A stretch of DNA of 64,000 bases, from NCBI GenBank assembly GCA_017476425.1, contig JAFUZV010000047.1:1-64000 (forward strand), in the 5' to 3' direction. The translations under genes were made by a program, and so were the position numbers. Origin of the DNA: Selenomonadaceae bacterium (GTDB lineage: Bacteria > Bacillota > Negativicutes > Selenomonadales > Selenomonadaceae). The notes beneath the pieces were generated by a model. The model saw only the letters and a program-made list of their open reading frames with translations, was not told the origin of the DNA and did not search any database. Every line of letters begins with the position of its first letter. Within the stretch, counting starts at the first letter, position 1. Shown piece by piece: positions 16,066-32,968 of the stretch.

Positions 16066-16683
16066 ATGATCGCAATTATTGATTATGGCGTTGGAAATTT
16101 GTTTAGCGTTGAAAAGGCTTTTGCTTCGATCGGTGAAGAAGTGAAAGTTACAGGTTCAGCTGACGATTTAAGAGCGGCTGATAAATTAGTTTTGCCGGGC
16201 GTTGGAGCATTCGGTGATTGTATGAAAAATCTTGAATCAACCGGACTTATTCCGATCATCAAAGAGCAAGTCGCTAATAAAAAAAATCTTTTTGGGATTT
16301 GCGTCGGTTTACAGATTTTATTTGAAAATAGTGAAGAATCTCCGGGCGTTAGTGGTCTTGGAATTTTGAAAGGCACTATTAAAAAGATCAATGCTCCACA
16401 ATTAAAAATTCCTCATATGGGCTGGAATTTTCTAATTAAGAATGCAGAATGCAGAATGCAGAATGATTTTTTGAATGGTTTAGATCGATCTTATTTTTAT
16501 TTTGTGCATTCTTATCATGCTGTACCGGAAGATAAAAATTTGATCGCTGCAACTACTGATTACGGTGAAACATTGACGGCAGCGATCGCTTATGAAAATA
16601 TTTTTGCAACACAATTTCACCCGGAAAAATCCGGCGACGTTGGTTTAAAACTTTTGAAAAATTTTTGTGATTGGAAGGCGTAA
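16066..16683 (+). CDS. hisH: Imidazole glycerol phosphate synthase glutaminase subunit
   Basis: A 205-residue class I glutamine amidotransferase. The oxyanion/nucleophile block is FGICVGLQIL with the catalytic cysteine, and the His-Glu pair is in FATQFHPEKSGDVG. It supplies ammonia to HisF for the fifth step of histidine synthesis. A heptanucleotide repeat is inserted in frame around residue 127 (reading NAECRMQND), in what should be a surface loop, without disturbing the catalytic blocks. The partner hisF is 4.4 kb downstream, separated by a dynamin-like gene, a membrane protein gene and hisA. Confidence 0.97.
   Translation: MIAIIDYGVGNLFSVEKAFASIGEEVKVTGSADDLRAADKLVLPGVGAFGDCMKNLESTGLIPIIKEQVANKKNLFGICVGLQILFENSEESPGVSGLGILKGTIKKINAPQLKIPHMGWNFLIKNAECRMQNDFLNGLDRSYFYFVHSYHAVPEDKNLIAATTDYGETLTAAIAYENIFATQFHPEKSGDVGLKLLKNFCDWKA
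16433..16467 (+). repeat. Heptanucleotide tandem repeat, GAATGYA family, inside hisH
   Basis: Three exact GAATGCA units at 16440-16460, flanked by TAATTAA before and GAATGAT after. Same family as the repeats at 26352, 40983, 44611 and 55943. Confidence 0.9.
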
Positions 16684-16687
16684 TTTT

Positions 16688-19444
16688 ATGAGTAATTCCG
16701 AAGAAGAGATCAGACAAGAATTTATCAGCAAGTTGAGAATTTCAAATGAAACGATCGAAAAAATTTTGAAAACTGATCCTGATGCTTTAGTTATTAATGG
16801 CGATGATCTCAGAAAACTTGAAGAATATCAAAAAATGAATCAAGCAATTTTGAAAAAACTTGAGAATAAAGAATTTACTGTTGCTGTCGTTGGACTTGAA
16901 AAAGCCGGTAAAAGTACGCTCGGTAATGCAATGATCAAACAAATGATCTTACCGGAATATGAAACACGTTGCACTTATACGACAACTGAAATTCGTTTTG
17001 GAAGTACTGACAATGCAACAGTGCACTTTTATAGCAATGCAGAATTTAATAACAGATTTAGAAGTATGCTCCGAGATTTAAACTTTCCTCAAGCTGATAA
17101 TGTAAGTTTTGCTACAATGACTTTGCAAGCCTTCAATACTTATTGGAATCAAGTGAAAATTGCAGCTGAAAACGATGAAAGATCAATAGAAGCCAGTTTA
17201 GTTAAAGATTATGATACTTCTACTGCTGCTGATATTAAACTTATGCTTTCACAAAAAAACGTAGTCGAAAAATTTCTTGGACACAAAGATTTAGATTTTG
17301 ATAGCACATATTGGAATCCAAAAGATAAATTTAATGACTTCAAACAATTTATAACGGGTATGACTGACGATAAAGGCGGACAAACTGCAAAACCTTATGC
17401 CGTGAAAAATGTTGTAGTTGAATCTACAGAACTTGATGGAATGGAAAATATTGTACTTTATGATGTGCCCGGCTTCGACTCACCAACTGAATTGCATAGA
17501 CGACAGACTGCAGAAATGTTGAAAAAGGCTGATGCTATAATTTTGGTTATGGATTTAAGTGTAAATTCGCGCCTTACGAAAACACATTTAGATGTATTGC
17601 GACAAAATCAAGATGAATATGGGATAAAACTTTCTGAAAAAGCCTTTATTTTTGGTAACCGTCTTGATCATTGCAAAAGCATTGACGAAGTTCATAGACG
17701 TATCAAACCTTTGATAAACGATTTCAAGAGAGAAAAAATTATAACTGAAGATCATTTTTTCTATGGATCAGCTCGTGCTTACCTTGAAAGAATTGGAAAA
17801 ATGTCATTTGACGATCTAGATAGTGCTTGTTTTACAAATATCGATAAATTGAAATTGCCTAATAGTGATGGTGTTGATGCACTTCACGAAGGAATGAAAT
17901 ATTATTACGATAATGATCGCTTTGCAGTCCTTCAACGCCGTGCTGAAGTTACCGTCACAAATACAAGAGACCTTTTAAAATCTATTCTTGAAAGTCACCG
18001 CAATGGCGAAATTAAAAATAGTGATTTACGTTCTGTGATCAAAATGAAAATTCAAAGTCGCCTTAGTACTTTTATAAAAGAATCACAGACTGTTACAATG
18101 GCTCACGTAAATAAAATTGATTATACGAAACCATTTACTACTGCAATGAAAGCAAGCATTGAAGATATTTATCCTTTGATTGATCCTACTTATATGACAC
18201 TTATTAAAGATGTTGAGACGAAAGCGGCGATCAATCCAAATGGAATTTATCCAACTTCTAAAGTTGATAATGGCGTTCGTGATGAATTGAAGAAAATTTT
18301 TATTGAAAATATCGTTTCACGAGCCTCACAACTTACAACTGAACATCAACAGGAACTTAGAAATAATTTAGTTGAAAAATTTTTAGAAATTATGGGAATG
18401 GAATCTCAAATTAAATCAGAAGACAAAGCCGCATTAGAAAAGTCCGTTAATGAACTCTTCGATCATATGTTAATTGAAGGCGGCGAAAATTGTAATTTTA
18501 ATCCACTTGTGGAGCGTTTCGTCACTTCAATAATTTTAACTCTGATACTTAATCCATTTGCTACGCCGGAACGCTTGCAGCAAATTCAAAAAACTTTTTC
18601 AGAATTAATTTCGCTTGCAATGTATTACAACATTCCGATGAAGGAAGAAAACGAATCAATAGATATGAACCTTGACGACATAGGCAAAGAGAGTTTTAAA
18701 TTTTTTGCAATGATCCTAGCGCACGAAGGTATAGAAGACGATTCAACAGAAGATGATTCAGAAGAATCTATTAACATAAAAAAATCTCTGGAAAATTTAT
18801 TTAACTCTCACAAAGGTATAATTACTAAAGGTGCTGCGCTTGCCGTCGATATTTTACCTATGGGTAAATGGGCTAAATTATTAATGAGAGCCGGGATTAA
18901 TTTAATGGACTCTCAAAACACTCAAAAACTTGATAATAAATTAAGAAATTTGTTTTCAAGCGATGATTGGATCAAATTCAATAAAGATCAACGTATCAAG
19001 GCGATTGAAAACGAAATAAATAATTGTGTTGCTGAAAAACGCAGAGAAAATAAACCTAATGAGAATGACGGAACTATTACATCTCAACTTAATGAACTTT
19101 ATGAATTAGCAAAAGATATCAGAAAAATGGACAATAAAGAAGATATGATAACTACACTTGATACAGATATAAAAATCTTGCGGAAGATCACAGAAAAAGC
19201 TGTTATAAATGCGATCGGGCTTGAGACAGCGTTTATTTCAGTTGTAACGAAAAATGTTGAACTCATTCGCAAGCACCTTGAAGAAGATGACGGCACAGAT
19301 CAATTTATAACGTGGATTGATGAAAACTCTGAAAAACTTATGCCTTCAAAATTCCAAACATTCATTGAGGAAGAACAGATCAGAAATAAACGAAATACTA
19401 TTGTCGAGGCAATTAGCGAATCAATGAAAACATTGACGGCTTAA
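16688..19444 (+). CDS. Bacterial dynamin-like GTPase
   Basis: A 918-residue large GTPase. The P-loop is GLEKAGKST at residues 69-77, the switch threonines are at 97-100, G3 is DVPG at 259-262 and G4 reads NRLD at 324-327. The long remainder is helical, with a hydrophobic stretch (FVTSIILTLILNP) and a second around VDILPMGKWAKLL that could touch membrane. Bacterial dynamins remodel membranes; some act in phage defence or envelope stress. The start overlaps the hisH region: the ATG is four bases after the hisH stop and its ribosome-binding site GGAAGG lies within hisH. No sign of a partner dynamin. The exact function is unknown. Confidence 0.85.
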   Translation: MSNSEEEIRQEFISKLRISNETIEKILKTDPDALVINGDDLRKLEEYQKMNQAILKKLENKEFTVAVVGLEKAGKSTLGNAMIKQMILPEYETRCTYTTTEIRFGSTDNATVHFYSNAEFNNRFRSMLRDLNFPQADNVSFATMTLQAFNTYWNQVKIAAENDERSIEASLVKDYDTSTAADIKLMLSQKNVVEKFLGHKDLDFDSTYWNPKDKFNDFKQFITGMTDDKGGQTAKPYAVKNVVVESTELDGMENIVLYDVPGFDSPTELHRRQTAEMLKKADAIILVMDLSVNSRLTKTHLDVLRQNQDEYGIKLSEKAFIFGNRLDHCKSIDEVHRRIKPLINDFKREKIITEDHFFYGSARAYLERIGKMSFDDLDSACFTNIDKLKLPNSDGVDALHEGMKYYYDNDRFAVLQRRAEVTVTNTRDLLKSILESHRNGEIKNSDLRSVIKMKIQSRLSTFIKESQTVTMAHVNKIDYTKPFTTAMKASIEDIYPLIDPTYMTLIKDVETKAAINPNGIYPTSKVDNGVRDELKKIFIENIVSRASQLTTEHQQELRNNLVEKFLEIMGMESQIKSEDKAALEKSVNELFDHMLIEGGENCNFNPLVERFVTSIILTLILNPFATPERLQQIQKTFSELISLAMYYNIPMKEENESIDMNLDDIGKESFKFFAMILAHEGIEDDSTEDDSEESINIKKSLENLFNSHKGIITKGAALAVDILPMGKWAKLLMRAGINLMDSQNTQKLDNKLRNLFSSDDWIKFNKDQRIKAIENEINNCVAEKRRENKPNENDGTITSQLNELYELAKDIRKMDNKEDMITTLDTDIKILRKITEKAVINAIGLETAFISVVTKNVELIRKHLEEDDGTDQFITWIDENSEKLMPSKFQTFIEEEQIRNKRNTIVEAISESMKTLTA

Positions 19445-21893: not shown

Positions 21894-21974
21894 AATTTTA
21901 ATTTTGATCATTGAAAGGTATTTTTCATTCGTTATCGAAATGTCAAAAAAATTTTTCTAATCGAGGTGAATAAA

Positions 21975-23537
21975 ATGAATGAACAAAATACCATTGCATT
22001 TTTGATCAAACAGCTTTTAACGAAAGTATTTCAACTTGTCGTTGTAATGGTTGCCGTTGTGATGATCAGTTTGTACTTATTCACGAGTTACACGGCGGTT
22101 GTTAATGAAGCCGGAATTGTTCGCGGCGGCAGTCAGAGAGTTGTCAAGCAAGTTTTAGCCGGTGCAGATGCATCGAAAGCAACTGAACGTGTAGAAGGTC
22201 TTTTGAAAAAACTTGACGGAGCAATTCTTCTCGGTGGATTCTCAAGCAGTCGTGATAAAGTTGAGGCTTATTGGCAAAACAGTATTAAACCCGAAATTAA
22301 TAATTATCAAACAACAAAGGACTCATCAAAACTTTTAGCAAACAGCGAAACATATTTTGAATTGACAAATGAAATGGTCGACAAAGCACAAACAATGGTT
22401 GATATTATGGCGTATCTTCTTTACATATTGTTGATTGCTTTTGCGATCGTCACCGGTGTATTTCTGAAAAAAGTTAATCATATCTTTGAAGAAAGAGTTG
22501 TTGATCCGCTCGGTGCACTTGAAGGCAGTGTTAATAAACTCAGTCAAGGTTATCTTTCGCAGAAATTTAATTATAATCGAAGTGATGAGATCGGTGCATT
22601 GTATGATCTTCTTAATAAAATGCGTGTCGTCTTGTTAGGTTACGTGCAAGACATTGAAGAGAATTTGAAAACAATGGCAAGCGGTGATCTTGTAAAATCA
22701 ACTTCAATGAAATATATCGGTGATTTTGCGGCGATTCAAACGAATCTTGAATACATTCGTCAATCACTTTGTAACGAAATTCAATCAATGGGCGGCTTAG
22801 CTGATAAAGTTGCAGAAAGTGCCGGTGAAGTTTCTCAAGTTTCACATTCACTTGCAGAAGGCGCAATGAGTCAAACAGAAAGTATTCAAAAATTGCAGAC
22901 AAAAATTACTGAAACTATGGAGCAAAATTCAAAAGTTGATACTTTCGTTAATGATGCAATGAGATCGACAGCGGACACCGTTAAAAGTATTGAAAGCAGT
23001 CGTGAATTGATGAATAAAGTTGTTGAGGCGATGAATGATATTTCTAAAACGTCTGAAGAAATTAATTCAATTCTCGGTGCGCTTGAAGAGATCACAGCAC
23101 AAACAAATTTATTATCGCTTAATGCGTCGATCGAAGCAGCTCGTGCAGGTGAAGCCGGAAAAGGTTTTGCGGTTGTCGCTGATGAAGTTAGAAAACTTGC
23201 TGAACAGTCTGCACAATCAACACAAAACATTCAAGAGTTGATCAAAAATGCACTTGCAAGTATTGAACGTGGCACCGGCGTTGTTGACATTGCGGCAAGT
23301 TCTTTGTCAGGAATCACGGAGAATACTGAGGCGGTAACTAAAATTATTAATAAACTTAGTGAACAAAGTAAATATCAGCAAACGCAAATGGAACAAGTTA
23401 ATTCGTTATCGCAAACAATTTTGAGTGTTGTAACTGATAATTCAGCAGTGAGTGAACAGAGTGCAGCGGCGGCGGCGGAACTTTCCGGCTACTCTGATTC
23501 ATTTAAATCAAGCGTTGGAAAATTTAAAACGAATTAA
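21975..23537 (+). CDS. Methyl-accepting chemotaxis protein
   Basis: A 520-residue transducer. Two membrane helices (about residues 15-40 and 140-160) bracket a roughly 100-residue external domain. Its opening [17 protein letters not shown] resembles the PilJ/type IV-pilus transducer sensor. A HAMP domain follows, then the signalling domain with the hairpin tip [20 protein letters not shown] and [18 protein letters not shown]. No CheR-tethering pentapeptide is at the C-terminus. The ATG at 21975 follows GAGGTGA. It stands alone with a terminator on both sides; no che genes are nearby. Confidence 0.95.
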
Positions 23538-23550
23538 TAACAAAAAAATT

Positions 23551-23579
23551 TGAGCAATCAATTTGATCGCTCATTTTTT
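23551..23579 (+). terminator. Bidirectional terminator between the chemoreceptor and the flagellin-like gene
   Basis: TGAGC at 23551-23555 pairs with GCTCA at 23569-23573; an inner ATCA/TGAT stem extends it across one mismatch. T-runs follow on both strands, suiting the two convergent genes. Confidence 0.75.
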
Positions 23580-23599: not shown

Positions 23600-25519
23600 T
23601 TAAATGAAATTATCTCTCATAATACGATTGTCCATTATAATATTATTTGTATTTGTGTTATGGTTATTTATATTATTACCTATAAAGCGTTGAATATAAG
23701 AATTAACGTTAGACAATTCACTTTGAATTTGAGAAAGTGCGCCTTCAATTACTCGTAAGGCTATAGAGGCATTTCGTTGTGACAATATATCAATAGAATT
23801 AAGTCTTCTATTTGAAGCACCTTTGATAATATCCATAAAATCATTTTGCGAAGTATTATTTCCAAAGTAAGAATCATATCTTTGCTGATCGAATGGATTT
23901 AAAAATCTTCCTTGCGGAGAAATTAAATTGCTTGTGCCGAGATTTTTTGTATTTACGTTTAAGAAGTAAATATTTATGATAGGTTGTTGATTAGTTACAT
24001 TATCATTAACAGGACGAATTGAAGGATAAATATTATTATTGTGTGGAGGAAAATTATTATTATTTGGACGAAAATCCATAGGTTTAAGATGACCGTCAAA
24101 TGGCAAATTATTTTGCGTTGATGGAAATTCATTTTGAGAAGGTGAAGAATTTAAATTTTGGCGTGCATCGGCGGACATTCCATCAGAAGAAACATTAGCA
24201 GTATTTTGACCGACGTATTGAGTCAAGCCTGAGAAATTAAAAGTAGGTGTTGTAACAGTTGCACCATTAATTGCATTTTCAAAAGTTGGATTATCGCCTA
24301 TATAGAATTGACTCAAACCTTTTTGAATACTACTCAAATATCCGGCAGGTTTAATAGAATTTGAAGTAACATAAGTATTTCCGTTATTATCGACATAAGT
24401 ATATAAACCGCCGGGACGTTGAATAAACATTCTAGGTTCATCTTCTGAATTTTGAGGATAAGCATCAAAATTATATTCAAGTCTAATTTTGCTGGTAAGA
24501 ATACCTGCAGGTTGTCCACTTGTATTAAAATTGACTGTAAATGAGGACACTAAAGTATCTTCATTATCAATAAAAGATACACGAGTATAAGTACCGTCTT
24601 CTTCCTTAATGTAAGAATAAACTGGAGCATAAGAAGTATGAATAGAGCCGTCTAATGCCGGTGATGTTCCGGCAGTTGTCAAACTTGAAAGTGAAGCTAC
24701 CCAAGTATTAGCAGCGGTTTTTTCAAGACTAATCGGAATGTTATGAGCCATACCTTGAGAATCATAAACTTGAATATTGGTTGATTGTGGAACGGAATGA
24801 CCAACAGTAAATCTTCCATCTGTAACAGTCATAGTTGATCCATCAGTCAAAGTTAATACAGAGTAAGTACCTTTTCCTACTTTAATAGATGAACCATAAG
24901 TAGTTAAATCATCGATTGCAGTTATTATCGGCTCATTAGCGTTAAGATTTCCAGAAAAAGTGATCTCTCTTGTAGATATTGCCCCCGGAATTTTATCTGT
25001 CATATCAGTAGGTTTTTCGAGTTTATTGATGGAGCCGGTATTTTGGATTTTTGAATTAGAACTATCGACAGATTGAACGTTGACTTGATTAATTCTGTAA
25101 CGCGAATTGCCTTCAGAAACGATCATACCATTCCAACTCATATTGTTTGCACTATCATCAATTTTTCCCAATGTTCCATAAAAATCAGTTTGAAAGAAAC
25201 CTCTTGCATCGTCAGTTTGCATTTGATCAGCGGCTCTAGATGCAAGGTCTTTTAGGTTACCAATATATTGAGAAATTTTGCGAAGATTACTTTGAGCATT
25301 TTGCAACAGCGTCGAAAGATTTTGGACGTTATTAGTTTTCGGTTGAGAAGGCTGAAGTTCGCGTCTCATTTGCTCTTGAATAGCATAATAAGGACTGTCA
25401 AGCGGTGAAAAATCATCTCTTCTATTAAGCGGAGAATTACTATTTGATCTGCCATCAGTCTTCTTTGAACTAGTGTTTGACAATAAATCTAAGAATGGAT
25501 TATTAAATTGAACTGCCAT
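23600..25519 (-). CDS. Flagellin/hook-protein chimera-like secreted filament protein
   Basis: A 639-residue protein. Residues 68-135 resemble the flagellin D1 helices (NAQSNLRKISQYIGNLKDLA, then DDSANNMSWNGMIV). A C-terminal helix (SQRNASIALRVIEGALSQIQ) resembles the flagellin C-terminus. Between them, residues about 184-340 look like the FlgE hook D2 domain (ITFSGNLNANEP, NIQVYDSQGMAHNIP, ANTWVASL). The usual flagellin D0 start is missing; instead there is a ~60-residue polar, Asn/Ser-rich leader. A second Asn-rich low-complexity stretch precedes the C-terminal helix. Start ATG with GAGGTG. It has a consensus promoter and stands alone, with no flagellar genes around it. Assignment is by pattern and needs a structure prediction. 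Confidence 0.6.
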   Translation of the reverse strand: MAVQFNNPFLDLLSNTSSKKTDGRSNSNSPLNRRDDFSPLDSPYYAIQEQMRRELQPSQPKTNNVQNLSTLLQNAQSNLRKISQYIGNLKDLASRAADQMQTDDARGFFQTDFYGTLGKIDDSANNMSWNGMIVSEGNSRYRINQVNVQSVDSSNSKIQNTGSINKLEKPTDMTDKIPGAISTREITFSGNLNANEPIITAIDDLTTYGSSIKVGKGTYSVLTLTDGSTMTVTDGRFTVGHSVPQSTNIQVYDSQGMAHNIPISLEKTAANTWVASLSSLTTAGTSPALDGSIHTSYAPVYSYIKEEDGTYTRVSFIDNEDTLVSSFTVNFNTSGQPAGILTSKIRLEYNFDAYPQNSEDEPRMFIQRPGGLYTYVDNNGNTYVTSNSIKPAGYLSSIQKGLSQFYIGDNPTFENAINGATVTTPTFNFSGLTQYVGQNTANVSSDGMSADARQNLNSSPSQNEFPSTQNNLPFDGHLKPMDFRPNNNNFPPHNNNIYPSIRPVNDNVTNQQPIINIYFLNVNTKNLGTSNLISPQGRFLNPFDQQRYDSYFGNNTSQNDFMDIIKGASNRRLNSIDILSQRNASIALRVIEGALSQIQSELSNVNSYIQRFIGNNINNHNTNTNNIIMDNRIMRDNFI

Positions 25520-25556
25520 AAAATTCACCTCTTATCTTTTTTTAAAAAGTAATTTC

Positions 25557-25585
25557 ATTATAAATTTACGATTTTTGTTTGTCAA
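25557..25585 (-). promoter_or_regulatory. Consensus sigma-70 promoter of the flagellin-like gene
   Basis: On the minus strand TTGACA (25585-25580), a 17-base spacer and TATAAT (25562-25557): both boxes match consensus exactly. Strong housekeeping expression is expected, not a flagellar sigma-28 promoter. Confidence 0.9.
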
Positions 25586-25612: not shown

Positions 25613-26323
25613 TTAATCGATACTTTTTCTTGTAATGATTGTTGAGAGATAATTTAATTGATCGTCTTTGTGATCGCTAATGTCTGAAATGATTTTTTCA
25701 TCAGGCAAGCCGCAACGACTAACTAATTTTGCTTGCCACGCCATATTATGATTTTCGAGAGTGTCGACGATCTGATCAAAATTTTTATAAACCTTCATCA
25801 AAACTGAAGTATCAGCTTTATCAAGAATTTCATCAATCTTGTTGAGATCAGCGGTTGCAGGAATAATCGACAAAATTTCATTGCCGAAAGCGATCGGCTG
25901 TCCGATTCGTGAGGCAATCGCTAAGAATGCCGGAACGCCCGGTATCGTTTCAATATTAATTTTCTCTTCGCTGAGTAATTTAAAAATATAAATATAAGTG
26001 CTGTAAAACATTGGATCGCCTAAAGTTAAGAATGCGACATTTTTTTTAGCTTGAAGAATTTTTATAATCTCTTCTTTGTTTGAAATGAAAATTTCCGGTG
26101 ACTCTGCAAAATCCTTGACCATAGGGAAAACTTGATATATGATCTCAACGTCAGCTTTCAAATAAGGTCTTGCGATCTCAAGTGCAACGCTGCCATCTTT
26201 CTTTTCAGTCTTCGGCGCAATGATCACGTCAACATTTTTGATCGCCTTGATCGCTTTAACTGTCAATAAGTCCGGATCGCCCGGACCGACTCCAATTCCA
26301 TAAAAAGTTCCCAGCTTTGTCAT
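25613..26323 (-). CDS. cbiL: Precorrin-2/cobalt-factor II C20-methyltransferase
   Basis: A 236-residue tetrapyrrole methylase. The N-terminal GVGPGDPDLLTVKA, the middle LTLGDPMFYST and the block IPGVPAFLAIASRIGQPI are the family marks of CbiL/CobI. It methylates C20 of the corrin precursor with AdoMet. In an anaerobe the cobalt-first route, hence CbiL, is likelier. ATG at 26323 is preferred to a TTG nine bases upstream because AAAGG is ten bases from it. The other cobalamin gene here, cbiA, is 18 kb away, so the pathway is dispersed. Confidence 0.93.
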   Translation of the reverse strand: MTKLGTFYGIGVGPGDPDLLTVKAIKAIKNVDVIIAPKTEKKDGSVALEIARPYLKADVEIIYQVFPMVKDFAESPEIFISNKEEIIKILQAKKNVAFLTLGDPMFYSTYIYIFKLLSEEKINIETIPGVPAFLAIASRIGQPIAFGNEILSIIPATADLNKIDEILDKADTSVLMKVYKNFDQIVDTLENHNMAWQAKLVSRCGLPDEKIISDISDHKDDQLNYLSTIITRKSID

Positions 26324-26351
26324 TTTAATCAAACCTTTCTATATTAATTTA

Positions 26352-31018: not shown

Positions 31019-32968
31019 TTATTTTTTACCTTTGAGAAGTACATTTATATTATCAGTTAATTTTTTGCTCTCCTTAACCGCCTTATTAAACCAGATTTTA
31101 GCCTTGTGATCATCTGCCTCAACACCAACACCGTCTCTATAAATCTCAGCAATATTTTTCATCGCCTCAACGTTAGCTCTTGCGTTAACATTGAGTTTAA
31201 TAATTTTTTTATACAAATGAATTGCTTTGATCGAATTTTGTTTGACGATCTCGCCGGTTTTATAAATTTCAGCTAATTTTCTCATTGCGCCAATATCGTT
31301 AAGCATAATTGCTTTTTTAAGCCATTTAGTTGTTTGATAGCCATTCTTTTCGATACCGTCACCGATAAAATAAATATCAGCAATTTCATTATAAATTGTG
31401 CACTTAATTGATTTTATATCAATATTTCCGACTTTTGCAGCTTCATCAATCGCTGCTTGCAGATATTTAATCGCCTTCTTGCCATTCTTTTCAATACCGA
31501 CTCCGGCACGATAAATATCAGCGAGCATTCTCATCACATTTGCACGATAAATATTTTCAACGCTTTCATTGTTGAGAATTTTTTTCAAGTATCTGATCGC
31601 AACTCTGGAATTTTGTTTAACGCCTCTTCCTAATTGATAAATTTTACTTAACTCAAGCAATGCTGAAACGTCACCATCATTTGCCTTGCTTTGGAGATAT
31701 TTAAGATCGTTTTGAATATCCTTGCGAGTTATTTTCTTTTGTTCAGGAGGTTGATTTTCTTTTGTATCATTCTCAACTTTGCTGATCGCTTTTTTAGTGC
31801 ATTTAATATCATAGTCGTAATTTGAATGACGCAAAATCGCCATATGATGAGTTTCGTTAGTCTTTCCATAGAGATAAAAATTTTCTTCGCAGTCACAAAA
31901 TTCTTTTGCTAAATTTCTTCCGGCTTTCACGAAAATTTTTTCTAAATTCAAAATCGGTTGAACGTATTTATAAAATGCAACTTTAAACGGCAACAATTCA
32001 TCATTCAGATCGTATTCTTTACGAATAGGTTTAGCAATTCCAAGCGGCAATATAGAAATATTTTTAATTCGTTGAATAAATTCATCATCGCTTTCATAGC
32101 CGTACTTATTCCAGCAAATTGCAGTGAGTTTAATTTTATCATCATTTTGACTTTGAAGATAAATTTTTTCATAATCACAATAAATTTTTCCGTCAAAAAC
32201 CTTGAGACCGACGAGAATTTTTCCGTCAATAAAATCCTCATTCATCGAATCTGCATTAGCTATAAAAGCATCAATATCTGATAAAATAATTTTATCTTCC
32301 TTTTCAATGTGAAACATAGGGAATACAAAGCCAGTGTATGTATCTTTCTCACGTTTATCCAAAATTCCGTAACCGATATGACGCAGCGGCAAATTAGCAA
32401 CTCTTTCAGCAAATTCTTCATCATTTTCAAAAACATCTTTTGTCAGTTCATCTTCAACTTTGTTATCAAAATTCAAAATGTTTTCTTCAATGTCCAGCGG
32501 ATTAATATCAATACCAAATTTTTTGATCGTCTCACGCTTGGACTTTAAATTTTTGCCGCTGACTTGATATTTATTAACGACTTCAAGATCGCTATCTAAA
32601 AAATCTGTTGCTTGAAAAATTTTTTTGTCGTGACTCAATGCAAGCCAAGCAACAATTTTAAAAAGAGCATTCAAACATTTTTCAATATCGTTATCAGTGA
32701 TTTTGTTCCACGCTAAAGTTTCATCGTGCGAAGCCTTATTTCCGACTAAACGGACTTGATGGCAAGCGGCGATAATTTCTTTCGGCATTTTAGCTTTCGT
32801 TGAAGCCTCAGCAATGCGATCGAACAAATGTCTTTTCTTTGCGCCGAACATTCTAACGATCAATTCAAGTGCTTGACGTGCCTTATTCATATTTTGTTCT
32901 TCGTCAGCCTCATTACAAATTTTGTAAAGTTCTTCATAATCTTGTTTCAAAAAATCGAATCTTTTCAA
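31019..32968 (-). CDS. DUF4145-like and Sel1-repeat protein
   Basis: A 649-residue protein. The first ~120 residues form a helical domain of the DUF4145 type (ALELIVRMFGAKK, ACHQVRLVGNKASHD). A middle part of beta character repeats the motif LPLRHIGYGI/LPLGIAKPI. From about residue 420 there are Sel1-like repeats, each with A..YLKKA- and -GVGIEKNG-type signatures. Sel1 repeats serve as protein-protein scaffolds. The specific role is unknown. It has a strong promoter of its own and leads the operon with folC, the secreted protein, the O-antigen ligase and rex. Confidence 0.8.
   Translation of the reverse strand: MKRFDFLKQDYEELYKICNEADEEQNMNKARQALELIVRMFGAKKRHLFDRIAEASTKAKMPKEIIAACHQVRLVGNKASHDETLAWNKITDNDIEKCLNALFKIVAWLALSHDKKIFQATDFLDSDLEVVNKYQVSGKNLKSKRETIKKFGIDINPLDIEENILNFDNKVEDELTKDVFENDEEFAERVANLPLRHIGYGILDKREKDTYTGFVFPMFHIEKEDKIILSDIDAFIANADSMNEDFIDGKILVGLKVFDGKIYCDYEKIYLQSQNDDKIKLTAICWNKYGYESDDEFIQRIKNISILPLGIAKPIRKEYDLNDELLPFKVAFYKYVQPILNLEKIFVKAGRNLAKEFCDCEENFYLYGKTNETHHMAILRHSNYDYDIKCTKKAISKVENDTKENQPPEQKKITRKDIQNDLKYLQSKANDGDVSALLELSKIYQLGRGVKQNSRVAIRYLKKILNNESVENIYRANVMRMLADIYRAGVGIEKNGKKAIKYLQAAIDEAAKVGNIDIKSIKCTIYNEIADIYFIGDGIEKNGYQTTKWLKKAIMLNDIGAMRKLAEIYKTGEIVKQNSIKAIHLYKKIIKLNVNARANVEAMKNIAEIYRDGVGVEADDHKAKIWFNKAVKESKKLTDNINVLLKGKK

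Follow-up and report, generated by a model that had tools for sequence, protein, structure and literature searches.

A flagellin–FlgE chimera without D0 segments in a genome of the rumen genus Quinella

The 639-residue protein encoded by the minus strand at 23600..25519 of the window (the whole stretch of DNA analysed, 64,000 nucleotides of contig JAFUZV010000047.1) almost certainly combines in one chain a flagellin D1 domain, split into two halves, with the D2 domain of the hook protein FlgE, D0 being lost. It is encoded by an intact single gene, a natural flagellin-FlgE fusion whose D2 domain stems from the FlgE of the same clade and takes the place of the flagellin hypervariable region. This architecture suggests that a flagellar building block has become a protein unable to polymerise. 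The features of the gene and its product are as follows.

25557..25585, minus strand: sigma-70/sigma-A promoter, TTGACA-17-TATAAT, exact consensus (12/12)
25526..25531, minus strand: Shine-Dalgarno sequence GAGGTG, 6 nt upstream of the ATG, read from the sequence
23600..25519, minus strand: coding sequence of the chimera (P0001), 639 aa, stop codon included, no stops inside
25391..25519, minus strand: residues 1-43, leader rich in Ser and Asn where flagellin has its N-terminal D0 helix, with disorder predicted (residues 1-40 at pLDDT about 32-43)
25076..25390, minus strand: residues 44-148, N-terminal half of flagellin D1, from the Flagellin_N match, conserved positions and fold
24161..25039, minus strand: residues 161-453, FlgE D2 domain, from Pfam, identity to the FlgE of the same genome, fold and tree
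23993..24160, minus strand: residues 454-509, Asn/Pro-rich low-confidence linker, from composition (pLDDT about 27-40 for most positions as far as residue 500)
23648..23992, minus strand: residues 510-624, C-terminal half of flagellin D1, from BLAST and fold (pLDDT 88-96 over 521-600)
23603..23647, minus strand: residues 625-639, remnant up to the expected start of the C-terminal D0 helix, from the alignment; the helix itself is missing
23551..23573, minus strand: terminator-like hairpin and T run directly 3' of the stop codon, within 30 bases

Translation of the open reading frame from its ATG gave exactly 639 residues, and no remnant of D0 was present between the stop codon and the terminator-like hairpin. 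The convergent neighbour (21966-23537) encodes a methyl-accepting chemotaxis protein, and the gene on the other side (25613-26332) encodes a tetrapyrrole methylase. The family-library scan covered part of the genes of the window, which also encodes a dynamin-family protein of 925 aa (16667-19444) and a 649-aa protein with DUF4145 and Sel1-repeat matches (31019-32968).

Family profiles assigned the middle and the ends of the chain to different flagellar proteins. In Pfam, FlgE_D2 matched residues 244-447 with 31.4 bits (cut-off 22.7), and Flagellin_N matched residues 45-132 with 25.0 bits, slightly below its cut-off of 26.6 but above it in the search of the own genome (28.9 bits). The Flagellin_N match spanned profile positions 44-131, so that the D0 part was missing; NCBIfam returned weak partial flagellin models only. 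The N-terminal part also matched flagellins among the PDB sequences, the C-terminal ~130 residues were matched by the flagellin C-termini of the genus in BLAST (best E 2e-19), and a profile of the middle and its hook relatives matched FlgE 6ndx with E 5e-15. The initial annotation had pointed to Asn/Ser-rich tracts, which were borne out by the composition of residues 1-43 (Ser 19%, Asn 14%), 448-510 (Asn 24%) and 616-639 (Asn 38%). None of the 639 residues is cysteine, whereas cysteine makes up about 0.9% of the 21 other window proteins (P about 0.003 given their composition); the flagellin on contig C135 likewise contains no cysteine.

Structure models recovered both folds in the one chain. 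The full-chain model was built on an alignment (A5) of 13 full-length flagellins and 7 full-length FlgEs, which were used because domain fragments were misplaced when aligned together. Helices 61-125 and 521-610 were modelled with high confidence; the low-confidence regions were residues 1-39 and the greater part of 135-243 and of 369-511. The D1 coiled-coil was built from both chain ends, as in flagellin, and superimposed on Pseudomonas FliC (4nx9) with Z 18.9 and an rmsd of 1.9 over 165 residues, both chain halves being used. A separate model of residues 150-470 gave a confident core that matched the FlgE structure 6ndx with Z 12.9; the 17 best structural matches, at Z 9-13, were FlgE without exception, after which the score fell to 4.8. 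Since relatives were included in the alignments, these folds are homology-guided and confirm the homology rather than providing independent evidence of it. The description in the initial annotation of flagellin D1-like ends around a FlgE D2-like middle, without the D0 start, thus agrees with sequence, phylogeny and two structure models, and the check it proposed, both folds in one chain, gave a positive result.

The D2 domain was traced to the hook protein of the host lineage. Contig C74 of the same genome encodes an ordinary, full-length FlgE (561 aa; NCBIfam FlgE, E 1e-117), which shares 58% identity with residues 161-453 of the chimera and contains the Flg_bb_rod N-terminus and Flg_bbr_C C-terminus (D0/D1) that are absent from the chimera. 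In the D2 tree, the chimera was nested with a support of 100/99 in the clade formed by the FlgEs of this genome (G000) and its close relatives G103 and G048, on a long branch of 0.94 compared with 0.12-0.25. As the branching order within this clade was not settled by the tree, the D2 donor may be either the present FlgE of the species or that of an ancestor. The ends (residues 44-148 and 510-624) shared about 20-30% identity with the dispersed flagellins of the genus. Among the proteins from the fetched loci, only the window protein was matched by all three parts; flagellin ends were seen in no other match to the middle, most of those with their N-terminus in the locus being recognisable as FlgE, and D2 was seen in no other match to the ends.

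The loss was quantified on positions conserved in 13 flagellins. The chimera kept 5/16 of them in the N-terminal D0, 25/52 in the N-terminal half of D1, 8/21 in the C-terminal half of D1 (33/73 for D1 in total) and 3/33 in the C-terminal D0 region, whereas the remaining flagellins kept about 65-100% per region, with one divergent case (L006). The N-terminal D0 helix with its conserved LSSG.rI..A.DDA motif was absent, no helix being predicted before residue 43, and the chain stops ahead of the start of the C-terminal D0 helix, which binds FliS and forms part of the filament core. The core of the filament is lined by D0, which elsewhere among bacteria also carries the signals for export and FliS binding, so the product of the chimera should stay out of the core. 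In a solved flagellum, the D0 domains of hook, junction and filament subunits all line the lumen side (PMC12221982), and export signals are placed in D0 by a further report (PMC10936197). With this segment gone from both ends, an ordinary subunit of the filament core is unlikely, as is the new filament protein suggested in the initial annotation.

The chimera shares single features with several known proteins. Like flagellin (FliC/Hag, PF00669/PF00700), it has one half of D1 at each end, with order and fold unchanged, but it has no D0 at either end and a FlgE D2 replaces the variable region. With FlgE (PF07559, D2) it shares the D2 fold, but this D2 is mounted on flagellin D1. FlgL has a flagellin-like D1 fold too; the chimera, however, showed no FlgL or FlgK family match, and the genome has its own FlgL and FlgK. 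Insertions into the flagellin variable region are established; one paper reports 61 putative domain families and does not name FlgE in its main text (PMC5595980). The best-studied case is a metallopeptidase: in flagellinolysin, as in the chimera, a foreign domain fills the variable region (PMC5595980), but the insert of the chimera is a structural domain of the hook, its D0 is lost, and neither an HExxH motif nor a peptidase match was found in it. Related Quinella flagellins do carry an HExxH-type motif in the variable region and are flagellinolysin-like. The literature searched, which covered few subscription journals, contained no natural flagellin-FlgE chimera and no description of domains exchanged between the hook and filament polymers with the polymerising core lost as well. 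If the proposed reading is true, flagellar subunits can recombine across the hook/filament divide and be recruited to non-structural work, and the chimera offers a natural test of how D1 and D2 behave without D0.

The host belongs to Quinella, a genus of rumen Negativicutes; bins 1Q5 and 2Q5 fall among the genus genomes in the FlgE tree, and the named FlgE relatives are rumen Selenomonadaceae. Kumar et al. (PMC9585023) report that Quinella, which is uncultured, has an almost complete set of flagellar genes but lacks genes diagnostic of type III secretion; clear sightings of its flagella are missing (PMC9585023). Flagellar genes were found elsewhere in the genome, as the initial annotation had proposed to check: in addition to FlgE on C74, FlhA is on contig C235, and a cluster on contig C105 contains FlgM-, FlgN-, FlgK-, FlgL-, FliW-, FlaG-, FliD- and FliS-like genes, named from position and sequence start, of which the FlgL-like frame also matched Flagellin_N. 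With this ordinary set elsewhere, the chimera replaces none of it. About eight other Flagellin_N matches are dispersed on other contigs. Sigma-70-like promoters precede at least five of these flagellins (exact on C67, 11/12 on C56, and 10/12 on C142, C96 and C182), so both the promoter and the isolation of the chimera are typical here. The exact consensus promoter described in the initial annotation was confirmed as a sequence but lost its value as a mark of difference. The isolation also noted there is real, in that a further flagellin, FlgE_D2 or FlhA match was looked for on the contig and not found, but it is not distinctive, and neither feature was accepted as a sign of a non-flagellar role.

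The likeliest reading, held at slightly less than even confidence, is that the chimera is a non-polymerising accessory or surface protein whose flagellin D1 hairpin displays the D2 knob of the hook, a function deduced from its architecture. One of the dispersed flagellin paralogues may have acquired a flgE fragment in its variable region by recombination, and the resulting copy may later have lost its D0 segments and been retained as a non-polymerising protein. The D1 coiled-coil hairpin would then serve as a scaffold that exposes a D2 knob of the hook type, either on the cell surface or on the flagellum. Acting as a monomer or oligomer, the accessory protein would decorate the hook or filament by D1/D2 contacts, or be a soluble look-alike of the hook surface. 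The more specific proposal of a dedicated exported or surface protein presenting the hook D2, a natural filament-hook chimera that gave up polymerisation, is held tentatively; it could, for example, be a look-alike engaging whatever recognises or assembles the hook. The surface protein suggested in the initial annotation is a possible role close to this accessory reading.

Export of the chimera is probable, and the Ser/Asn-rich disordered leader and the lack of cysteine would fit it. Early rod and hook export substrates have a small non-polar N-terminus, followed at a distance of some 30 residues or more by an FxxxPhi gate motif (PMC8983047). The chimera has AV at residues 2-3, and within its first 120 residues FxxxPhi occurs at 5, 9, 109 and 113 only; no gate motif was clearly recognisable at the required spacing, and no known export signal could be demonstrated. 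FLDLL at residues 9-13 resembles the gate motif but is too close to the N-terminus for the published spacing.

The main rival to the accessory reading, which we regard as unlikely though deserving serious weight, is that the chimera arose by recombination recently and in this species alone, does little or nothing, and is expressed from an inherited flagellin promoter while heading for loss. The chimera was seen in a single genome, further dispersed flagellins of this genome appear frameshifted or split, and the D2 has a long branch and a raised dN/dS, about 0.32 against the own FlgE compared with 0.12-0.14 between true FlgEs (rough values, synonymous sites being near saturation), so that constraint on the chimera is partly relaxed. 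Against this rival, the frame of 639 codons is unbroken despite the divergence of D2, which differs from FlgE by about 0.36 nonsynonymous changes per site. Simulated neutral drift from flgE produced about 6 stops per 561 codons at 0.1 substitutions per site and about 17 at 0.36, while the chimera has none. The D1 and D2 folds are also still recovered. A pseudogene was disfavoured by the simulation and the dN/dS. The split flagellins themselves, those on C96 (L054:4828-6797), C182 (L055:6241-7620) and C56 (L057:4836-6284), are either interrupted or without an in-frame start, and could be frameshifted, phase-variable or affected by sequencing errors.

A role as a minor flagellin, built into the outer layer of the filament through D1 and displaying the hook-like D2 with no contribution to the core, is improbable. 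The fold of the D1 halves is well kept, and inserted variable-region domains are known on the filament surface, as in flagellinolysin (PMC5595980); however, the lumen-facing D0 (PMC12221982) is lost from both ends, and the D1 itself keeps fewer than half of its conserved positions (33/73). Much less likely still is a component of the hook-filament junction, hook cap or filament cap, as also raised in the initial annotation; none of the tests made favoured it. The chimera does join parts of two structures that meet at the junction, but it has no D0, Pfam and NCBIfam gave no FlgL, FlgK or FliD family match, the ordinary FlgK-, FlgL- and FliD-type genes are clustered on C105, and the chimera was found in one species only and was missing from all other Quinella genomes searched. 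Two genes joined in the assembly are very hard to credit even in a metagenome assembly of 237 contigs with 5.8% contamination, because both joins are in frame and the divergence of D2 from the own flgE (58% identity, hence no copy) and of the ends from the nearest flagellins found (about 30% identity) leaves no gene pair found in the genome that could yield the chimera by misjoining.

No second chimera was found in 66 Quinella genomes or in an evenly drawn sample of 300 genomes of the class, the latter judged by match ranges rather than by every frame. Pattern scans tuned to close relatives revealed no orthologue in GTDB contigs or viral contigs, and a further alignment (A6) was too poorly conserved for a contig scan. 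That no known orthologue attests a conserved function counts against the accessory reading, as do the long D2 branch, the raised dN/dS and the lack of a demonstrable export signal. The chimera was also absent from the cbiL loci of 14 relatives, in which only cbiL was conserved, together with an adjoining gene of 129 aa in nearly all of them. A conserved locus around cbiL was rejected, and the FlgE near cbiL in one genome (G005) is an ordinary hook protein.

Other unusual hook and flagellin genes were observed in the comparison. In a genome of another genus of the family (G304), a 196-aa frame (L193:6083-6670) located 1.6 kb from flgE encodes a lone FlgE D2 fragment; like the chimera it is a piece of hook D2 outside FlgE, but it has no flagellin parts and is probably a partial duplication. 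Three hook proteins, with frames of 1095 aa (L024, G037), 1035 aa (L022, G053) and 971 aa (L105, G042), are about twice the usual length of FlgE and contain very large extra domains. Flagellins of three Quinella relatives (L032, L043 and L029 in G036, G059 and G009) and of G197 (L194) carry a metallopeptidase motif of the HEFTHA type, which sits in the variable region as in flagellinolysin and is in tandem in L194.
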